Assembly: GCF_003857015.1 (NCBI RefSeq)
Contig: NZ_QGGF01000367.1
Span: 1-45,378 of the forward strand
From: Micromonospora globispora
GTDB taxonomy: Bacteria > Actinomycetota > Actinomycetes > Mycobacteriales > Micromonosporaceae
Direction of reading: 5' to 3'
Length of the DNA stretch: 45,378 bases
Shown here: piece by piece, positions 28,884 through 36,593 of the stretch
How positions within the stretch are numbered: position 1 is the stretch's first letter
How the letters are laid out: each line of letters begins with the position of its first letter
Position numbers and translations under genes: made by a program
Notes under the pieces: generated by a model
What the model was told of the DNA's origin: nothing
Seen by the model: only the letters and a program-made list of their open reading frames with translations
Databases searched by the model: none

Positions 28884-29972
28884 TCAGCGGCGGGTGAGCT
28901 CGGTCTCGCCGGCCAGGCGGGCGGCGCGGTCGGCCTCGGCAAGGGCGTCCAGCACGCCGTCCAGTTCGCCAGCGAGGGCCAGATCGAGGTTGTACGCGGT
29001 GTAGCCGATCCGGTGGTCGGTGATCCGGTTCTGCGGGAAGTTGTAGGTGCGGATCCGCTCCGAGCGGTCCACCGTGCGAACCTGCGCCTTGCGGGCGTCC
29101 GAGGCGGCCGCGTCGGCCTGCTCCTGGGCGGCCGCGAGCAGCCGGGCCCGCAGGATCCGCATCGCCTGCTCCCGGTTCTGGAGCTGGGACTTCTCGTTCT
29201 GGCAGGAGACCACGATGCCGGTCGGCACGTGGGTGATCCGGACCGCCGAGTCGGTGGTGTTGACCGACTGGCCGCCCGGGCCGGACGAGCGGAACACGTC
29301 GATCCGCAGGTCGTTCGGGTCGATGGTGACGTCCAGGTCCTCGGCTTCCGGCAGCACCAGCACGCCGGCGGCGCTGGTGTGGATCCGGCCCTGCGACTCG
29401 GTGACCGGGACGCGCTGCACCCGGTGCACGCCGCCCTCCCACTTGAGCCGGGACCAGACGCCGTTACCGCCCTCCGGCACGCCCTTGGTCTTGATGGCCA
29501 GCGAGACGTCCTTGACCCCGCCGAGGTCGGAGTCCTGCGCGTCGATCACCTCGGTGACCCAGCCGTGCCGTTCCGCGTACCGGGTGTACATGCGGAGCAG
29601 GTCCCCGGCGAAGAGGGCCGACTCCTCACCGCCCTCGCCGGCCTTGATCTCGACGATGACATCCTTGGCGTCGTGCGGGTCGCGCGGGATCAGCAGCTCC
29701 GCCAGCCGCTCCTCCAGCGCCGGCAGGGACTCCGCGATCGCGTCGGCCTCGGCGGCGAACGCCGGGTCCTCGGCGGCCAGCTCGCGGGCGGCGGCCAGGT
29801 CGGCCCGGGCCTGCTCCAGCTCGGCGGCCGCCTTCTGCAGCGGGACCAGCTCCGCGTAGCGCCGGCCCACCCGCCGGGCGGCGCCCTGGTCGGCGTGGAT
29901 GGCCGGGTCGGCCAGCCGCTTCTCCAGCTCGGCGTACTCGTCGAGGAGGGCGGCCAGGCGCTCACTGCTCAT
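28884..29972 (-). CDS. prfA: Peptide chain release factor 1
   Basis: A 362-residue class I release factor for UAA/UAG. The tripeptide anticodon region reads [10 protein letters not shown] (P-V-T at 189-191, RF1 type, not the SPF of RF2). The peptidyl-hydrolase loop is [10 protein letters not shown] (GGQ 233-235), and Gln235 is the expected target of PrmC. The ATG at 29972 ([13 protein letters not shown]) fits the family; an in-frame ATG 30 nt further upstream adds unusual residues. A strong hairpin lies between rpmE and this gene, so it may be transcribed partly on its own. Confidence 0.96.
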
Positions 29973-30083: not shown

Positions 30084-30308
30084 TTACTTGGCCTTCTTGG
30101 CCTGAACCTTGGCGTACTTCTGCTGGAACTTCGCGACCCGGCCGGCGGTGTCGAGGACGCGCTGCTTACCGGTGTAGAACGGGTGGCAGGCGCTGCAGGT
30201 CTCGACGTTGATCGCGCCGCCCTTGGCGGTGCTGCGGGTCGTGAAGGTGTGACCGCAGGAGCAGCGGACCTCGGTGGTCACGTACTCCGGGTGGATGTTG
30301 GGCTTCAT
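30084..30308 (-). CDS. rpmE: Ribosomal protein bL31 (zinc form)
   Basis: A 74-residue large-subunit protein. It carries the C-x-C ... C-x2-C zinc ribbon (Cys16, Cys18, Cys38, Cys41), so it is the C+ form normally used in zinc-replete cells. It begins [20 protein letters not shown] and ends in the usual Lys-rich tail. The ATG at 30308 has GAAAGGA upstream; longer in-frame readings are not L31-like. In relatives rho directly precedes rpmE; here about 5 kb of accessory genes separate them. Confidence 0.96.
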
Positions 30309-30571
30309 GTCGCCTCGGTCCTTTCGTCGGTGGTCGCCGGGTCGCCGTCGGTCGTCCCGTCGCTGCGCGACGGGCTCGGGCGTGAACCGGAACCGGTGGC
30401 CGATTGACCAGTGTGCCATGGGCGTGGGCCGACCCGGTAAGCGGGCCACACACGGGGTCCGGCAGGCTCAACGCTCACCTCCCGGTACGCATTCCCGCTC
30501 GGCTCGCGGGGATTCGTGACGCCGTACGGTGGGGTCGGCCACGGGAGCCGGGACGAACGGGAGGTGCGGGA

Positions 30572-31468
30572 ATGTTCCGCCTGATCGCCACCCGGGGGCT
30601 GCCCGCGTCCGGCAAGACCACCTTCGCCCGCCGGCTCCAGCCGGGCGTGATCCGGGTCAACCGGGACGACCTGCGCCGGATGATGCACGGCGAGCGGCTC
30701 TTCACCCAGTGGGCCGAGGGACAGGTCACCAAGGTCCAGCGGGCCCAGGTGGAGGCGCTGCTGGCGGCCCGGGTGAGCGTCTGCGTCGACGACACCAACC
30801 TGCGCTCGCGGACCCTGCGGGACTGGGCCGAGCTGGCGCAACGGTACGGCGCCGCGTTCGAGGTGCACGACTTCACCGACGTACCGCTGGAGGAGTGCCT
30901 GCGCCGGGACGCCGCGCGGCCGGAGGCCGACCGGGTCGGCGAGGCGGCGATCCGCCGCCTGCACGAGCGCTACCTGGCCAACCGCGCGTTACCGCTGCCG
31001 GTGCCGGCCGTCCGAACCGGCGGGCCGGCGGCGGTGCACGAGGCCGACGCCGAACGGCCGGCGATCGTCCTGGTGGACATCGACGGCACGGTCGCGCTGA
31101 ACGTCTCCCGCAGCCCGTACGACATGACCCGGGTCGGCGAGGACGTCCCGAACGAGGCCGTGATCGCCGCGGTGCGGGCGATGCACGCGGCCGGGCACGG
31201 GGTGATCTTCTGCTCCGGCCGGGACGCCTCGGCACGCGCGGACACGGAGGCCTGGCTGGCCCGGCACGTCAAAGTGCCGTACCTGGCGCTGCACCTGCGG
31301 GCGATCGGCGACCACCGCAAGGACGCCATCGTCAAGCAGGAGATCTACGAGCGGGAGATCCGGGACCGCTACCGGGTGGTGGGCGTCTTCGACGACCGGA
31401 TGCAGGTGGTGCGGATGTGGCGTTCGCTCGGCCTGACCGTCTTCCAGGTGGCCGAGGGCGACTTCTGA
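30572..31468 (+). CDS. T4 Pnkp-like polynucleotide 5'-kinase / 3'-phosphatase
   Basis: A 298-residue bifunctional nucleic-acid end-healing enzyme. The N-terminal kinase has the P-loop GLPASGKTT (Lys15, Thr16; the same numbering as T4 Pnkp) and VNRDDLRRMM with the Asp/Arg pair of the kinase site, then DDTNL. The C-terminal HAD phosphatase has VDIDGTVAL (Asp169, Asp171; T4 Asp165 and Asp167), SGRD, HRKDAIVKQEIY and the closing DDRMQVVRMWRSLG ... VAEGDF, which tracks the T4 enzyme to its last residue. Domain order and length match T4 Pnkp, not the reversed order of mammalian PNKP. The ATG at 30572 has GGGAGG 7 nt upstream. No ligase is encoded nearby. It would be expected to repair DNA or RNA ends with 5'-OH and 3'-phosphate. 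It is divergent from rpmE. Confidence 0.88.
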   Translation: MFRLIATRGLPASGKTTFARRLQPGVIRVNRDDLRRMMHGERLFTQWAEGQVTKVQRAQVEALLAARVSVCVDDTNLRSRTLRDWAELAQRYGAAFEVHDFTDVPLEECLRRDAARPEADRVGEAAIRRLHERYLANRALPLPVPAVRTGGPAAVHEADAERPAIVLVDIDGTVALNVSRSPYDMTRVGEDVPNEAVIAAVRAMHAAGHGVIFCSGRDASARADTEAWLARHVKVPYLALHLRAIGDHRKDAIVKQEIYEREIRDRYRVVGVFDDRMQVVRMWRSLGLTVFQVAEGDF

Positions 31469-31606: not shown

Positions 31607-34600
31607 TCACGCGGCGGGTGCCTCCCCCGAAACCTCCGCCGCGGTGAGGGTGACCGTCGCCTCGGCGCGTACGCCGTTGACGGTCACCGCGAGGACGACC
31701 TGCGCGTCGGGCCGGAGCGCGGTCAGCTCCCCGGTCGCCGGGTCGAAGCGGGCCACGTGCCACGGCTTGACCCCGCCGGCCGAGCCGATGTGCAGGTTCG
31801 GCGACCCGGACCAGTCCGCGCTGACCGGCGCGGCCACCGGGACCGTACGGCCACCGGGCTGGGTGAGCGTGGCGCTGACCCGGGCCGCCGCGCCGGCCGC
31901 CACGCTGGCCGGTGCGGCCAGCGCCAGCCGGTCGACGTGGGCGTGGAACTCCGCCTCGATCCAGCGCGGCCCCTCGGCCAGCGGGTCACGCCGGGCCTGC
32001 TCGGCCTCCTCCGGGGTCACCGGGTCGACGCCGAACTCGGTCCATCCGGTGAACCCGCCGAGCTGGGGCGGGGTCGACGGGTTCTTGCCCGAGTTGCCGT
32101 TGATCACGTACGGCACGCCGTCCACCCGGTCGGCGTGGAAGGTGCCGACGTGCCCGTTGACCATCAGCGCGCCCTTGCCGGTGCGGTGCTGGAAGTCGGC
32201 CAGCCACTGCTCCACCAGGGCCGCCTCCTTCCGGTCGAGGAGCTGACTGGCCTTGGCCGGGCTGGGGTCGCGCGGCGGGTGGTGGAAGAGCACCGCGACC
32301 GAGCCGACGGCCGGGTCGGCGGCCGCCGCGTCCAGGGTGTTCCGGAGCAGCTCCACCTGGTCGAACCCGCCGCCGCGCAGCGAGCCGGTGGCGGTGCTCA
32401 GGGTGACGAACCGGGTGCCCTGGTGGTCGAAGACCCGCGAGGTGTCGCCGAAGACGCTGCGGAAGTTGCTGATCGGCGCGCCCATGATCTCGTGGTTGCC
32501 CGGGACGTAGTACCACGGCAGCTCGCCGCCCAGCTCCTCGTCGAGGATCCGCTTCGCCAGCGTGAAGTCCGCCGGGTACGCGGTGTCCACGAAGTCGCCG
32601 TCGATGACGAGGAAGTCCGGCTTCGCCGCCTTGACCTCGCGGAGCGTACGGCGGGCCTGGGCGACCAGGTCGCTGTCCGGGTCGGCGGCGACGAACTGGG
32701 CGTCGGACATGACCGCGAAACGCCAGGTCGCCCCGTCCAGGGTGCCGTCGCGGAGGACCACCCGGTCGGTGCGGGGTGCCTCGGCCGGCGCCTCGACCGT
32801 CGGGGGCACCTTCGCCACCAGGTCGTCGATGACGGTTTCGCTGGTGTACTGCGCGGCCGGGTTGGTCTCGGCGACGTAGAACCGGCGGACCCGGACCGGG
32901 TACTGCACCCCGGCGGGGACGGTGAACTCGACGTACCGCCAGCCGGTCCAGGTGATGTACGGGCCGCGCAGCACGTGCTGGGTGTCCTGGGCGTCGTGCA
33001 GGTGCAGGCTGGGCCACTCCCCCTTGCCGTTGCCGTAGATCCACATCCCGAACGCCTGCGGCTGGCCGGGCACCTCGATCCAGGCCGGCGGGTCGGCGTA
33101 CGCGGCCCGGGTGCCGGTGGACTGGCTGAAGTCGTACGACAGCTTCAGGCCGGTGCCGGTGTGGCCGGGTGCCGGGGCGACCGAGCCGCTGGCCCGGGCC
33201 TGGCTGAACGTCCAGGAGGCGGCGTCGTCGAAGGTGGCGATCGAAACGTCGGTCAGCCCGACGGTCACCGGCAGCACGGTGGTGAAGTTTCCGACGTGGA
33301 CGGTGACCAGGGCGGAGCCGCTCTCCCCGAGCGCCTTGACGGATAGGTTGCCGTCGGCGGTCGGCGTGACGGCGAGCAGCTTGTCGTCGTACTCCAGCTT
33401 CAGGTCGGCCGGCTCGATGGGCGCGGTGTTCCCCTCCGCGTCGTAGCCGACCACCCCGAAGAGCCCGGTGTCGCCCGGCTTGTTCAGGCCGACCCGGTCC
33501 ACGGTGGAGTCGATCCGGGCCAGCGGGGCGAGAACGGCGAGGTCGAGGGTGCCGCTGGCCTCGTCCCGCCACGCGGTGACGGTGCTGCGGCCGGGCGCTC
33601 CGGCGCGGAACACGCCGTCGTCGTCCACCTTCCCCTGCGCGGCCGGGTTGGCCCGCCACTGCGGCTCCCCGGCGGCCGGCCCGTACGTCTCGTCGTAGCC
33701 GGCGGCGGTCAGGCGGCGGGTCAGCCCGGGGAAGACCCGGTCCGGCCGGCCGCCGCGGACCGGGGCGACGCCGGGCGCGGCGGTGGGGTCGGTCGCGGTC
33801 TCCAGCCAGTACCCGGTGAGTCGGCCGCTGCCCTGCGGCGCGTAGATGGCCAGGCCGTTCGGGACGGGCCGCTCGGTGCCGTCGGAGGGGCTGTTTTCCA
33901 CCTGCACCGCCACCGCGCCAGGCTCCCGGGCCAGCAGGGTCGACGAGCCGCCGCCGTCGAGGTTCAGCGCGGTGTACGCGCCGAGCTCGACCATCATTCG
34001 GCCCATTTCGGTCTGGGTGACGCCCCGGCTGTCCACCTGCCGGCCGTCCACGGTGAGCATGATCAGCCGGCGGCCGTCGGCGGAGAAGCCGACCGAGGTG
34101 CGCGGGGCCAGGGTCGGGTCCGCGACGGTCTGCACCATCCCGTCGCGGACCAGCACGTTGCCGCCGCCGACCGCGGAGCGGAGGGTGCCGCCGTCGGACG
34201 ACTTCGGCTGCCAGGTGAGGTCGACCGGGTCACCGGGGCGCAGCGCGGCGAGCGCGTCCGCCCCGGCGTCCCGGCCGAGCAGCACGGTGGTGCCGGCCGG
34301 GATCGGGCCGTCGCCGGCCGTAGTGGCGACCACGGCGACCCGGCCGCCGCTCACCGCGACCTCCGCGACCGGCCCGGCCGGCAGGGTGGCGGTGCCCTCG
34401 AAGCCGACCTGGATGATCCGGCCCAGCCCCTCGGCGGTGATTGCGGCGGCGTTGGTGTGCCCGGCGACCGGCGACTGGATCAGCTCGCCCGAGCGGATGC
34501 CGACGCCCTGGGCGGCGCCGGAGTTGTTGATGTCGAAGAAATCCCCGTTGACGGCGGCGACGGCGCGGGAGCGGTCCACCGCGGCGCGCAGCGGCTCGTC

Positions 34601-34981
34601 CCGGGTGACCGCCCCGGAGTTGACGTAATCGACGCTGACCCCGCCGGACAGGTCGGCGGTGAGCGCGTCGGCGCGCAGCCAGCCGTCGGCGTCGTACCGG
34701 TCGAAGGAGGTCAGGTCGAGACCGGGCGCGACCGGGCGGACGGTCTTCGCGGTCTCCAGGCCGCCGGCCGGTTCCAGGCCGGTGGTGGTGGCGACCGGGG
34801 TCTCCCGGGCCAGCGTCACCGCCGACGCGGGATAGGACGAGGAGGCGGGGGCGTCCTCGGCGGCGGTGGCGGTGTATCCGCCGGGCGCCGCGATGCCGGC
34901 CGGGGCCGGTCCGGTGAGGGTGAGCAGTGGCGTCAGCAGCAGGACGCCGGCGAGACGGGCGGATCGACTGCGGATACGCAT
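31607..34981 (-). CDS. Secreted phosphodiester glycosidase / metallophosphoesterase fusion
   Basis: An 1124-residue exported multidomain protein. Residues 1-32 are a Sec signal peptide. Residues about 90-375 form a phosphodiester glycosidase (NAGPA/DUF2233) domain: AVNGDFFDINNSGAAQGVGI, SVGFSADGRRLIMLTVDGRQ and NLDGGGSSTL. Several beta-sandwich/Ig-like stretches fill about 380-760. Residues about 765-1000 form a calcineurin-like phosphoesterase domain with VMSDAQF, DGDFVDT, PGNHE, FHHPP and NGHVGTFH. The first metal motif is D-x-Q rather than D-x-H. The last 110 residues are again beta-rich. The family removes GlcNAc- or sugar-phosphodiester caps, and the second domain could hydrolyse the exposed phosphate. 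A cell-wall glycopolymer substrate is a guess. The start ATG at 34981 has no clear Shine-Dalgarno. Confidence 0.87.
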   Translation of the reverse strand: MRIRSRSARLAGVLLLTPLLTLTGPAPAGIAAPGGYTATAAEDAPASSSYPASAVTLARETPVATTTGLEPAGGLETAKTVRPVAPGLDLTSFDRYDADGWLRADALTADLSGGVSVDYVNSGAVTRDEPLRAAVDRSRAVAAVNGDFFDINNSGAAQGVGIRSGELIQSPVAGHTNAAAITAEGLGRIIQVGFEGTATLPAGPVAEVAVSGGRVAVVATTAGDGPIPAGTTVLLGRDAGADALAALRPGDPVDLTWQPKSSDGGTLRSAVGGGNVLVRDGMVQTVADPTLAPRTSVGFSADGRRLIMLTVDGRQVDSRGVTQTEMGRMMVELGAYTALNLDGGGSSTLLAREPGAVAVQVENSPSDGTERPVPNGLAIYAPQGSGRLTGYWLETATDPTAAPGVAPVRGGRPDRVFPGLTRRLTAAGYDETYGPAAGEPQWRANPAAQGKVDDDGVFRAGAPGRSTVTAWRDEASGTLDLAVLAPLARIDSTVDRVGLNKPGDTGLFGVVGYDAEGNTAPIEPADLKLEYDDKLLAVTPTADGNLSVKALGESGSALVTVHVGNFTTVLPVTVGLTDVSIATFDDAASWTFSQARASGSVAPAPGHTGTGLKLSYDFSQSTGTRAAYADPPAWIEVPGQPQAFGMWIYGNGKGEWPSLHLHDAQDTQHVLRGPYITWTGWRYVEFTVPAGVQYPVRVRRFYVAETNPAAQYTSETVIDDLVAKVPPTVEAPAEAPRTDRVVLRDGTLDGATWRFAVMSDAQFVAADPDSDLVAQARRTLREVKAAKPDFLVIDGDFVDTAYPADFTLAKRILDEELGGELPWYYVPGNHEIMGAPISNFRSVFGDTSRVFDHQGTRFVTLSTATGSLRGGGFDQVELLRNTLDAAAADPAVGSVAVLFHHPPRDPSPAKASQLLDRKEAALVEQWLADFQHRTGKGALMVNGHVGTFHADRVDGVPYVINGNSGKNPSTPPQLGGFTGWTEFGVDPVTPEEAEQARRDPLAEGPRWIEAEFHAHVDRLALAAPASVAAGAAARVSATLTQPGGRTVPVAAPVSADWSGSPNLHIGSAGGVKPWHVARFDPATGELTALRPDAQVVLAVTVNGVRAEATVTLTAAEVSGEAPAA

Positions 34982-35459: not shown

Positions 35460-36593
35460 TCACTCCCCCGGCGTCGACTTCGCGATCTGCATCAGGAACT
35501 CGATGTTGGTCCGGGACTGCTTGAGCCGGTCCAGCAGGAGGTCGAGCGCCGCCTGCGAGTCCAGCGAGTGCAGCACCTTGCGGAGCTTGTGGACGATCGC
35601 CAGCTCCTCCGGCGCGAGCAGGACCTCCTCCTTGCGGGTGCCGGAGGGGTTGATGTCGATCGCCGGGAAGACCCGCTTGTCGGCGATCTTCCGGTCCAGC
35701 TTGAGCTCGGCGTTACCGGTGCCCTTGAACTCCTCGAAGATGACCGTGTCCGCCATGGACCCGGTCTCCACCAGGGCGGTGGCGAGGATGGTCAGCGAGC
35801 CGCCGTTCTCGATGTTGCGGGCCGCACCGAGGAACCGCTTCGGCGGGTAGAGCGCGGTGGAGTCGATACCACCCGACATGATCCGGCCGCTGGCCGGCGC
35901 TGCCAGGTTGTACGACCGACCGAGCCGGGTCACCGAGTCGAGCAGCACGACCACGTCGTGCCCCAGCTCGACCAGACGCTTCGCCCGCTCGATCGCCAGC
36001 TCCGCCACCGTCGTGTGGTCCTGCGGCGGCCGGTCGAACGTGGCCGCGATGACCTCGCCCTTCACCGACCGAGACATGTCGGTGACCTCTTCCGGCCGCT
36101 CGTCCACCAGCACCACCATCAGGTGGCACTCCGGGTTGTTGCGGGTGATCGCGTTCGCGATCGCCTGCAGCACCATCGTCTTACCCGCCTTCGGCGGCGA
36201 GACGATCAGCGCCCGCTGACCCTTACCGATCGGCATCACCAGGTCGATGACCCGCGTGGTCAGGATGTGCGGCTCGGTCTCCAGCCGCAGCCGCTCCTGC
36301 GGGTACAGCGGAGTGAGCTTGTAGAACTCCGGACGACGCTTCGCCTCCTCCGGCTCCATCCCGTTGATGGTGTCGAGCCGGACCAGCGGGGCTTGTCGGC
36401 CGCTGCTCGCCGTCCCGGGGCGCACGGCGCCGGTGATGGCGTCACCGCGGCGCAGGCCGTACTTCTTGATCGAGACATCGGAGACGTAGACGTCGTTCGG
36501 GGCCGGCAGGTAGCCGTGGATCCGGACGAAGGCGCGATAGTTGTCGACGTCGATGATGCCGGCCACCGGGACGAGGGTGGTGTCAGTGTTCAT
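35460..36593 (-). CDS. rho: Transcription termination factor Rho, short form
   Basis: A 377-residue hexameric RNA helicase. It begins almost directly at the cold-shock/primary RNA-binding domain ([23 protein letters not shown]) and has a complete motor: P-loop SPPKAGKT (132-139), [10 protein letters not shown], Walker B VVVLLDS (214-220), [12 protein letters not shown]-loop region and the R-loop KGTGNAE (290-296). The N-terminal helix bundle and the long Arg/Asp-rich insertion of typical actinobacterial Rho (about 600-700 residues) are missing. No remnant is found in any upstream frame. The ATG at 36593 has AAAGG 6-7 nt upstream. It stands at the expected rho locus but may be a paralogue. A C-rich leader precedes it. 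Confidence 0.92.

Follow-up and report, generated by a model that had tools for sequence, protein, structure and literature searches.

Classical RNA repair couples a healing enzyme to a sealing enzyme. In phage T4, as described in passages of PMC3400036, the polynucleotide kinase-phosphatase Pnkp turns 2',3'-cyclic phosphate/5'-OH ends into diol/5'-phosphate ends, and the RNA ligase Rnl1 then seals them. The window analyzed here, a 45,378-nucleotide stretch of Micromonospora globispora DNA taken at its full length, encodes a T4-type Pnkp with no ligase beside it. What can a healer do for a bacterium that lacks the sealer, and was it always alone?

A T4-type Pnkp gene between rpmE and rho

Judged by its sequence, the gene is a full-length T4-type Pnkp. 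The 298-aa frame has zero internal stops, the opposite strand carries a stop in frame 1, and GGAGGT lies 6 nt ahead of the ATG; promoter and terminator scans found nothing. Matches to PDB 4xrp (Pnkp1; E 1.9e-44, aa 4-298), PDB 1ltq (T4 Pnkp; E 1.2e-35, aa 2-298), and phrog_505 polynucleotide kinase (E 1.8e-92) run end to end, bearing out the full-length homology to T4 Pnkp proposed in an earlier, sequence-only reading of this DNA. Identity with the T4 protein is 36% (282 columns). Pfam places AAA_33 (kinase, aa 4-137) ahead of HAD_PNKP (phosphatase, aa 163-298), the order that reading had given, and Lys15, Asp169/Asp171, and the C-terminal VAEGDF (VASGDF in T4) are all as it described. The T4 catalytic residues, which we take to be K15, S16, D35, R38, D85, and R126 in the kinase and D165, D167, R176, R213, D254, K258, D277, and D278 in the phosphatase, align with 14/14 positions kept in the window protein, Ser16 being Thr. 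D85 varies within the family, being Asn or Glu in 10/47 ligase-bearing rows. By Pfam, the PNKP_ligase domain is absent from the window Pnkp. A metabolic P-loop kinase is ruled out by the two-domain match over the full length; the placement among metabolic kinases that the earlier reading had named as a refutation does not apply, since the Pnkp match spans each domain in full. L-seryl-tRNA(Sec) kinase was also rejected, as the kinase domain alone matched it, far under the curated cut-off.

Features of the Pnkp locus in window coordinates
Feature	Position	Strand	Basis
prfA (release factor 1), conserved neighbor	28884..29972	-	start codon picked by eye
rpmE (ribosomal protein L31), conserved neighbor	30084..30308	-	Pfam/synteny
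Spacer between divergent rpmE and Pnkp; site of the ligase gene in Rnl1-bearing relatives	30309..30571	.	synteny
GGAGGT, likely ribosome-binding site	30560..30565	+	sequence
Pnkp gene, 298 aa, T4-type 5'-kinase/3'-phosphatase	30572..31468	+	translation, structure, Pfam, phrog matches
Kinase domain, about aa 1-145	30572..31006	+	Pfam AAA_33 at aa 4-137
P-loop GLPASGKT, aa 9-16 (Lys15)	30596..30619	+	translation, T4 alignment
HAD 3'-phosphatase domain, aa 163-298	31058..31465	+	Pfam HAD_PNKP
HAD motif DIDGT, aa 169-173	31076..31090	+	translation, T4 alignment
NAGPA + metallophosphatase protein, 1124 aa; convergent neighbor in many Micromonospora	31607..34981	-	Pfam
rho, conserved neighbor	35460..36593	-	start set by alignment

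In the window, rpmE is followed by Pnkp, the NAGPA gene, and then rho. The earlier placement between rpmE and rho is correct for that stretch, but the 1124-aa NAGPA gene lies before rho. A scan of GTDB genomes provided the best 80 of 105 loci, referred to here as named loci, with Micromonosporaceae genera assigned by record titles. Divergent rpmE together with prfA adjoins Pnkp in 80/80 of these (best 80 of 105), and rho lies downstream in 71/80; the fetched stretch of the remaining 9 has no rho match, and 7 of those stretches stop less than 4 kb from Pnkp. The window neighbors (prfA, rpmE, the NAGPA protein, and rho) provide no prophage context. Recent phage capture or an assembly stray is ruled out by the 80/80 synteny among the best 80 of 105 loci and by decayed Pnkp pieces at the same site in other genomes (see below). 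A plasmid search returned 18 records with partial Pnkp matches and zero places covering 80% of the query.

The neighborhood has features of its own. The window rho is short at its N-terminus. Against the Rho frame (700 aa) of a close relative, L018, good alignment is confined to roughly the final 377 aa; the open frame's first 310 aa do not align, and local divergence marks the RNA-binding domain. Either a genuine change or an error of assembly or frame could account for this. In a genome with Pnkp only (G090), an 897-aa reverse-strand frame, by eye apparently a secreted enzyme, lies between rpmE and Pnkp (L178:1394-4087). In Actinoplanes, what is presumably a nitric oxide synthase oxygenase gene separates the repair unit from rho (L063:7675-8928 and equivalents).

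The ligase partners of relatives and their probable loss

Actinoplanes, Plantactinospora, and M. pattaloongensis carry a T4 Rnl1-like RNA ligase gene just upstream of Pnkp, often with an Rnl2-like ligase gene downstream. The unit is compact in Actinoplanes regularis (L063), where the gene of a 356-aa Rnl1-like ligase (PF09511) shares 4 nt with the start of Pnkp, and that of a 206-aa Rnl2-like protein (PF09414) begins 1 nt past the Pnkp stop. Among the named loci (best 80 of 105), 19 have Rnl1, 8 have an Rnl2-like gene alone, and 53 have neither. An Rnl2-like gene is also present at 16/19 Rnl1 loci, and the Rnl1 of L083 has an internal deletion.

Counts over 121 family genomes show that the loss is one-sided: no Rnl1 match lacks a Pnkp beside it, and Pnkp often occurs without Rnl1. 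Rnl1 was found at 44 places in 43 genomes, 44/44 upstream of a same-strand Pnkp, within 300 nt in 39/44 and, in the other 5/44, 0.7-1.7 kb away across intervening genes. Upstream Rnl1 is missing from 22/66 full-length Pnkp genes, in a count that left out Pnkp below 50% identity, HAD-only or kinase-only pieces, and one of the two pieces of an interrupted Rnl1 (G164). All but one of these 22 (21, the window included) adjoin rpmE and/or rho; the group also includes a Pnkp with an Rnl2-like gene (G134), one with an Rnl1-Pnkp pair elsewhere (G135), and a non-syntenic copy (G137). Outside the family, Rnl1 lies alongside 16/16 full-length Pnkp genes in 394 class genomes (upstream in 15, downstream in 1), in a search that scored 6 first-look candidates per genome and so may have missed copies.

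Two further lines of evidence bear on the nature of the unit. RlaP (RNA repair pathway DNA polymerase beta family) is encoded between Rnl1 and Pnkp in 4/4 loci read of one genus, g39 (L193:4276-4983, L324-L326; called by Pfam on one locus and by tblastn on the rest), which marks the unit as one of RNA repair. The closest phage match to the window Pnkp is that of Arthrobacter phage Bauer, 47% identical over all 298 aa, and the RNA ligase and kinase genes of this phage overlap by 4 nt. A phage-type cassette for RNA repair, pairing a ligase with Pnkp, was most likely the ancestral unit. Mycobacterium phage Aegeus and similar phages have no ligase within 2.5 kb of the kinase gene; given such surroundings in phages, distance alone does not equal loss. 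RlaP-like genes also adjoin Pnkp or HAD-only copies that are non-syntenic and may belong to prophages (L189, L191).

Within Micromonospora, the Actinoplanes Rnl1 and Rnl2-like queries matched 0/61 genomes, that of the window included. As a control, the Rnl1 query matches 43/121 family genomes and the Rnl2-like query 49/121, a number that includes weak matches. The rpmE-Pnkp gaps of loci without a full Rnl1, the window spacer among them, contain no Rnl1 remnant above chance, except at L083. A tree of prfA, rho, and rpmE unites all 66 Micromonospora-proper rows, none with Rnl1, and leaves the Rnl1-bearing M. pattaloongensis outside. The Pnkp tree puts Rnl1-bearing Plantactinospora beside Micromonospora with modest support; its syntenic copies do not fall on one side of a branch (2 changes), the non-syntenic L189 lies among them, and several long branches make its deep part unsure.

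Tree counts alone do not distinguish gain from loss. Loss is favored because the gene order is common to a phage and to genomes of other families. The simplest reading would be one ligase loss on the Micromonospora stem and more in other lineages, with the lone Pnkp of Micromonospora as a derived state. The earlier observation that no ligase stands beside Pnkp is true of the window genome but would reflect such a derived loss, since relatives have Rnl1-Pnkp or Rnl1-Pnkp-Rnl2-like units at that site.

Retention of Pnkp and other repair genes in Micromonospora

The orphan Pnkp shows no sign of relaxed selection in either domain. Catalytic positions are kept in 53/53 orphans, save one D277E and Ser/Thr at 16, among rows with at least 85% protein coverage and with the truncated M. 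okii copy (L096) left out. Median pairwise omega (NG86, 120 random pairs per group) is 0.213 for orphans (49 Micromonospora) versus 0.191 for partnered copies (16, from Actinoplanes and near genera). The corresponding values are 0.201 versus 0.193 for the kinase and 0.183 versus 0.179 for the phosphatase, and a smaller set yields 0.178 for orphans versus 0.205 for partnered copies. No functional reading emerged for 12 stem-specific residue changes in the orphans.

Pnkp above 80% identity is present in 33/61 genus genomes, with the copy of G053 split over two frames; G022 has a 58% identical copy with neither rpmE nor rho around it. Syntenic Pnkp is missing from 28/61. The sites read in 26 of those 28 all retain rpmE and rho, some with the NAGPA gene between them and some lacking it, and intact Pnkp is present at 0/26; as for the other two, the G003 contig stops beside rpmE and the G022 site lies outside the fetched set. 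Decayed Pnkp pieces remain at 2/26 empty sites: L227 preserves part of the C-terminus, and L247 preserves part of the N-terminus, its P-loop destroyed. Empty syntenic sites and decayed pieces indicate that Pnkp was formerly in the genus and disappeared on more than one occasion. By parsimony, the prfA/rho/rpmE tree requires at least 7 changes for the Pnkp-less label, and the genus tree requires at least 5 for Pnkp. In M. okii (L096:6001-6543), the kinase domain runs straight into VAEGDF, an apparent in-frame deletion with most of the phosphatase gone. Pnkp is dispensable in places, as evidenced by the 28/61 genomes without the syntenic gene, the M. okii phosphatase loss, and the two-frame copy of G053.

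The earlier reading had called for a genome search for ligases. In the window genome, Rnl1 was not found and two RtcB genes were, of opposite end chemistry: RtcB joins 3'-phosphate to 5'-OH ends, the very ends that Pnkp would remove. RtcB matches occur in 61/61 genus genomes, those of G041 and G060 by fragment alone. A table of long RtcB against Pnkp (21/13 vs 9/18) has p 0.04 with kinship ignored and G022 counted as Pnkp-bearing; RtcB2 has no association with Pnkp (p 0.57). No support is drawn from this link. In many Micromonospora, an RtcB-like gene adjoins a release-factor-like gene (G014:C19:70994-72372 and similar), an arrangement that resembles the RtcB2-PrfH operon; both window-genome RtcB matches belong to the other classes.

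PF09414 matches occur in 48/61 genus genomes. The sole RNA_ligase-family match of the window genome (L100) was rejected as an RNA ligase, since Pfam identifies it as an ATP-dependent DNA ligase; most other PF09414 matches are probably DNA ligases too, by like score and span, Pfam having been applied to L100 and L097 alone. L097:283-2151, from the Pnkp-bearing G037, is a 622-aa frame with a C-terminal RNA_ligase domain, unlike the L100 DNA ligase, and is a candidate extra RNA ligase in one species.

Hen1 matches occur in 31/61 genus genomes, 29 full and 2 partial (G031, G060). The Hen1_L model, which may miss the distant Pnkp1-type Hen1, has no match in the window genome. At L316:2473-6452 (G018), Hen1 overlaps an 838-aa kinase-metallophosphatase-ligase Pnkp, forming a complete Pnkp/Hen1 pair. 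In L322 (G031), frames like the L316 neighbors stay and the Hen1 match is down to 31 residues, a leftover suggesting that the Pnkp/Hen1 system, too, was lost in places. With partial Hen1 (G031, G060) counted as absent and G022 as Pnkp-less, the 61 genomes divide into 8 with Pnkp and Hen1, 25 with Pnkp only, 21 with Hen1 only, and 7 with neither (raw Fisher p 1e-4). When kinship is allowed for, 3 independent pairs remain on starred branches (5 on all), and the sign test for this opposition is not significant. No Rnl1, Rnl2-like, or full Hen1 match is present in 25/33 Pnkp-bearing genus genomes, the window's included.

Possible roles and comparison with known systems

The 80/80 syntenic loci (best 80 of 105) and purifying selection speak for a gene with a cellular role, not one passing through on a phage. 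This part of the role proposed in the sequence-only reading stands; its other suggestion, a resident anti-nuclease, would in the T4 sense need a sealing ligase. The following history is given about even chances. A phage-type Rnl1-Pnkp cassette would have settled at the rpmE-rho locus early in Micromonosporaceae; Rnl1 would have been lost on the Micromonospora stem and in other lineages, and Pnkp, kept with both domains under undiminished selection, would now be a stand-alone healer feeding RNA decay. Metal-independent RNases and ribotoxins that cut tRNA, rRNA, or mRNA would generate 5'-OH and 3'-phosphate or 2',3'-cyclic phosphate ends, which Pnkp would convert to 5'-phosphate and 3'-OH. The healed RNA would become a substrate of housekeeping nucleases for clearance and recycling, not religation. 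This decay role builds on the enzymology of 5'-phosphate- and 3'-OH-dependent nucleases.

Stand-alone healing is placed first because a classical 5'-phosphate/3'-OH RNA ligase was not found in the window genome. A kinase as constrained as the phosphatase points to 5'-OH substrates, hence to RNA rather than DNA. A broader proposal is tentative: healing without sealing might be a selected function in several lineages, with Pnkp as an eraser of ribotoxin-type RNA ends (also RtcB substrates), perhaps alternating with Pnkp/Hen1 in Micromonospora.

The strongest rival, although itself unlikely, is true RNA repair, in which Pnkp heals and an unlinked or unrecognized 5'-phosphate/3'-OH ligase seals, be it the Pnkp/Hen1 ligase or one too distant for the searches. 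Consistent with this, Rnl1 accompanies all 16/16 full-length Pnkp genes outside the family, Hen1 is present in 8/33 Pnkp-bearing genus genomes (its neighbor at L316 being a kinase-phosphoesterase-ligase protein), and G037 has its RNA_ligase-domain protein. Furthermore, parts of PMC7824862 describe the healing enzymes of jumbo phages as generally congruent with ATP-grasp ligases, which would make an orphan Pnkp state unusual. However, the 25/33 genomes without Rnl1, Rnl2-like, or full Hen1 include that of the window, in which the lone RNA_ligase-family match is by Pfam a DNA ligase.

Alternatively, Pnkp might clean 3'-phosphate/5'-OH DNA breaks for cellular DNA ligases, which appears improbable. 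T4-type Pnkp acts also on DNA, Micromonospora includes enediyne producers, and the window genome encodes an ATP-dependent DNA ligase. On the other hand, the partners seen beside Pnkp are RNA ligases or RlaP, and constraint on the kinase matches that on the phosphatase even though 5'-OH DNA ends are rare.

A resident anti-nuclease or antiphage/anti-toxin function, like that of T4 against PrrC, is still harder to credit. Phage ancestry of the cassette is plausible, and T4 Pnkp and Rnl1 restore cleaved tRNA-Lys according to passages of PMC3400036. The T4 strategy needs a sealing ligase, and it is weakened here because the partner types of relatives (Rnl1, Rnl2-like) and Hen1 were not found in the window genome. 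Slow decay of a relic that no longer has a function would explain the scattered losses, remnants, and truncated or broken copies, yet this reading is very improbable, since selection is unrelaxed and the catalytic residues persist throughout the genus.

Stand-alone healing remains the preferred reading, and parts of PMC13148394, which place a mycobacteriophage polynucleotide kinase among genes toxic on overexpression, are clear neither way for a healer role. Among the papers listed from the open-licence literature, none concerns an orphan T4-type Pnkp in Micromonosporaceae; as far as that listing shows, the resident Rnl1-Pnkp unit of this family and its one-sided ligase loss are new. If activity is confirmed, end-healing would be useful by itself in bacteria and ribotoxin damage would be linked to RNA decay, and the fate of 5'-OH/3'-phosphate RNA would become testable in the soil genus Micromonospora.

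Among known systems, phage T4 Pnkp (pseT) with Rnl1 (rnlA) shares domain order, full-length homology, and catalytic positions with the window protein, which differs in being cellular, syntenic across the family, and encoded in a genome where Rnl1 was not found. The ligase-kinase pair of phage Bauer has the same 4-nt overlap as Actinoplanes L063, whereas the window locus is without a ligase. The L063 unit is orthologous by position, at the same rpmE-rho site with a 76% identical Pnkp, and has two ligases where the window has none. Chromosomal T4-type Pnkp has a bacterial precedent in Capnocytophaga gingivalis, whose Pnkp1 (PDB 4xrp) is described in parts of PMC4411300; in the Pnkp1-Rnl-Hen1 system it works with Rnl and with Hen1, the latter not found in the window genome. 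The Pnkp/Hen1 repair system, present in other Micromonospora, likewise heals RNA ends, but does so with one kinase-metallophosphatase-ligase protein plus Hen1 and, unlike the window Pnkp, employs another phosphatase family and its own ligase domain.
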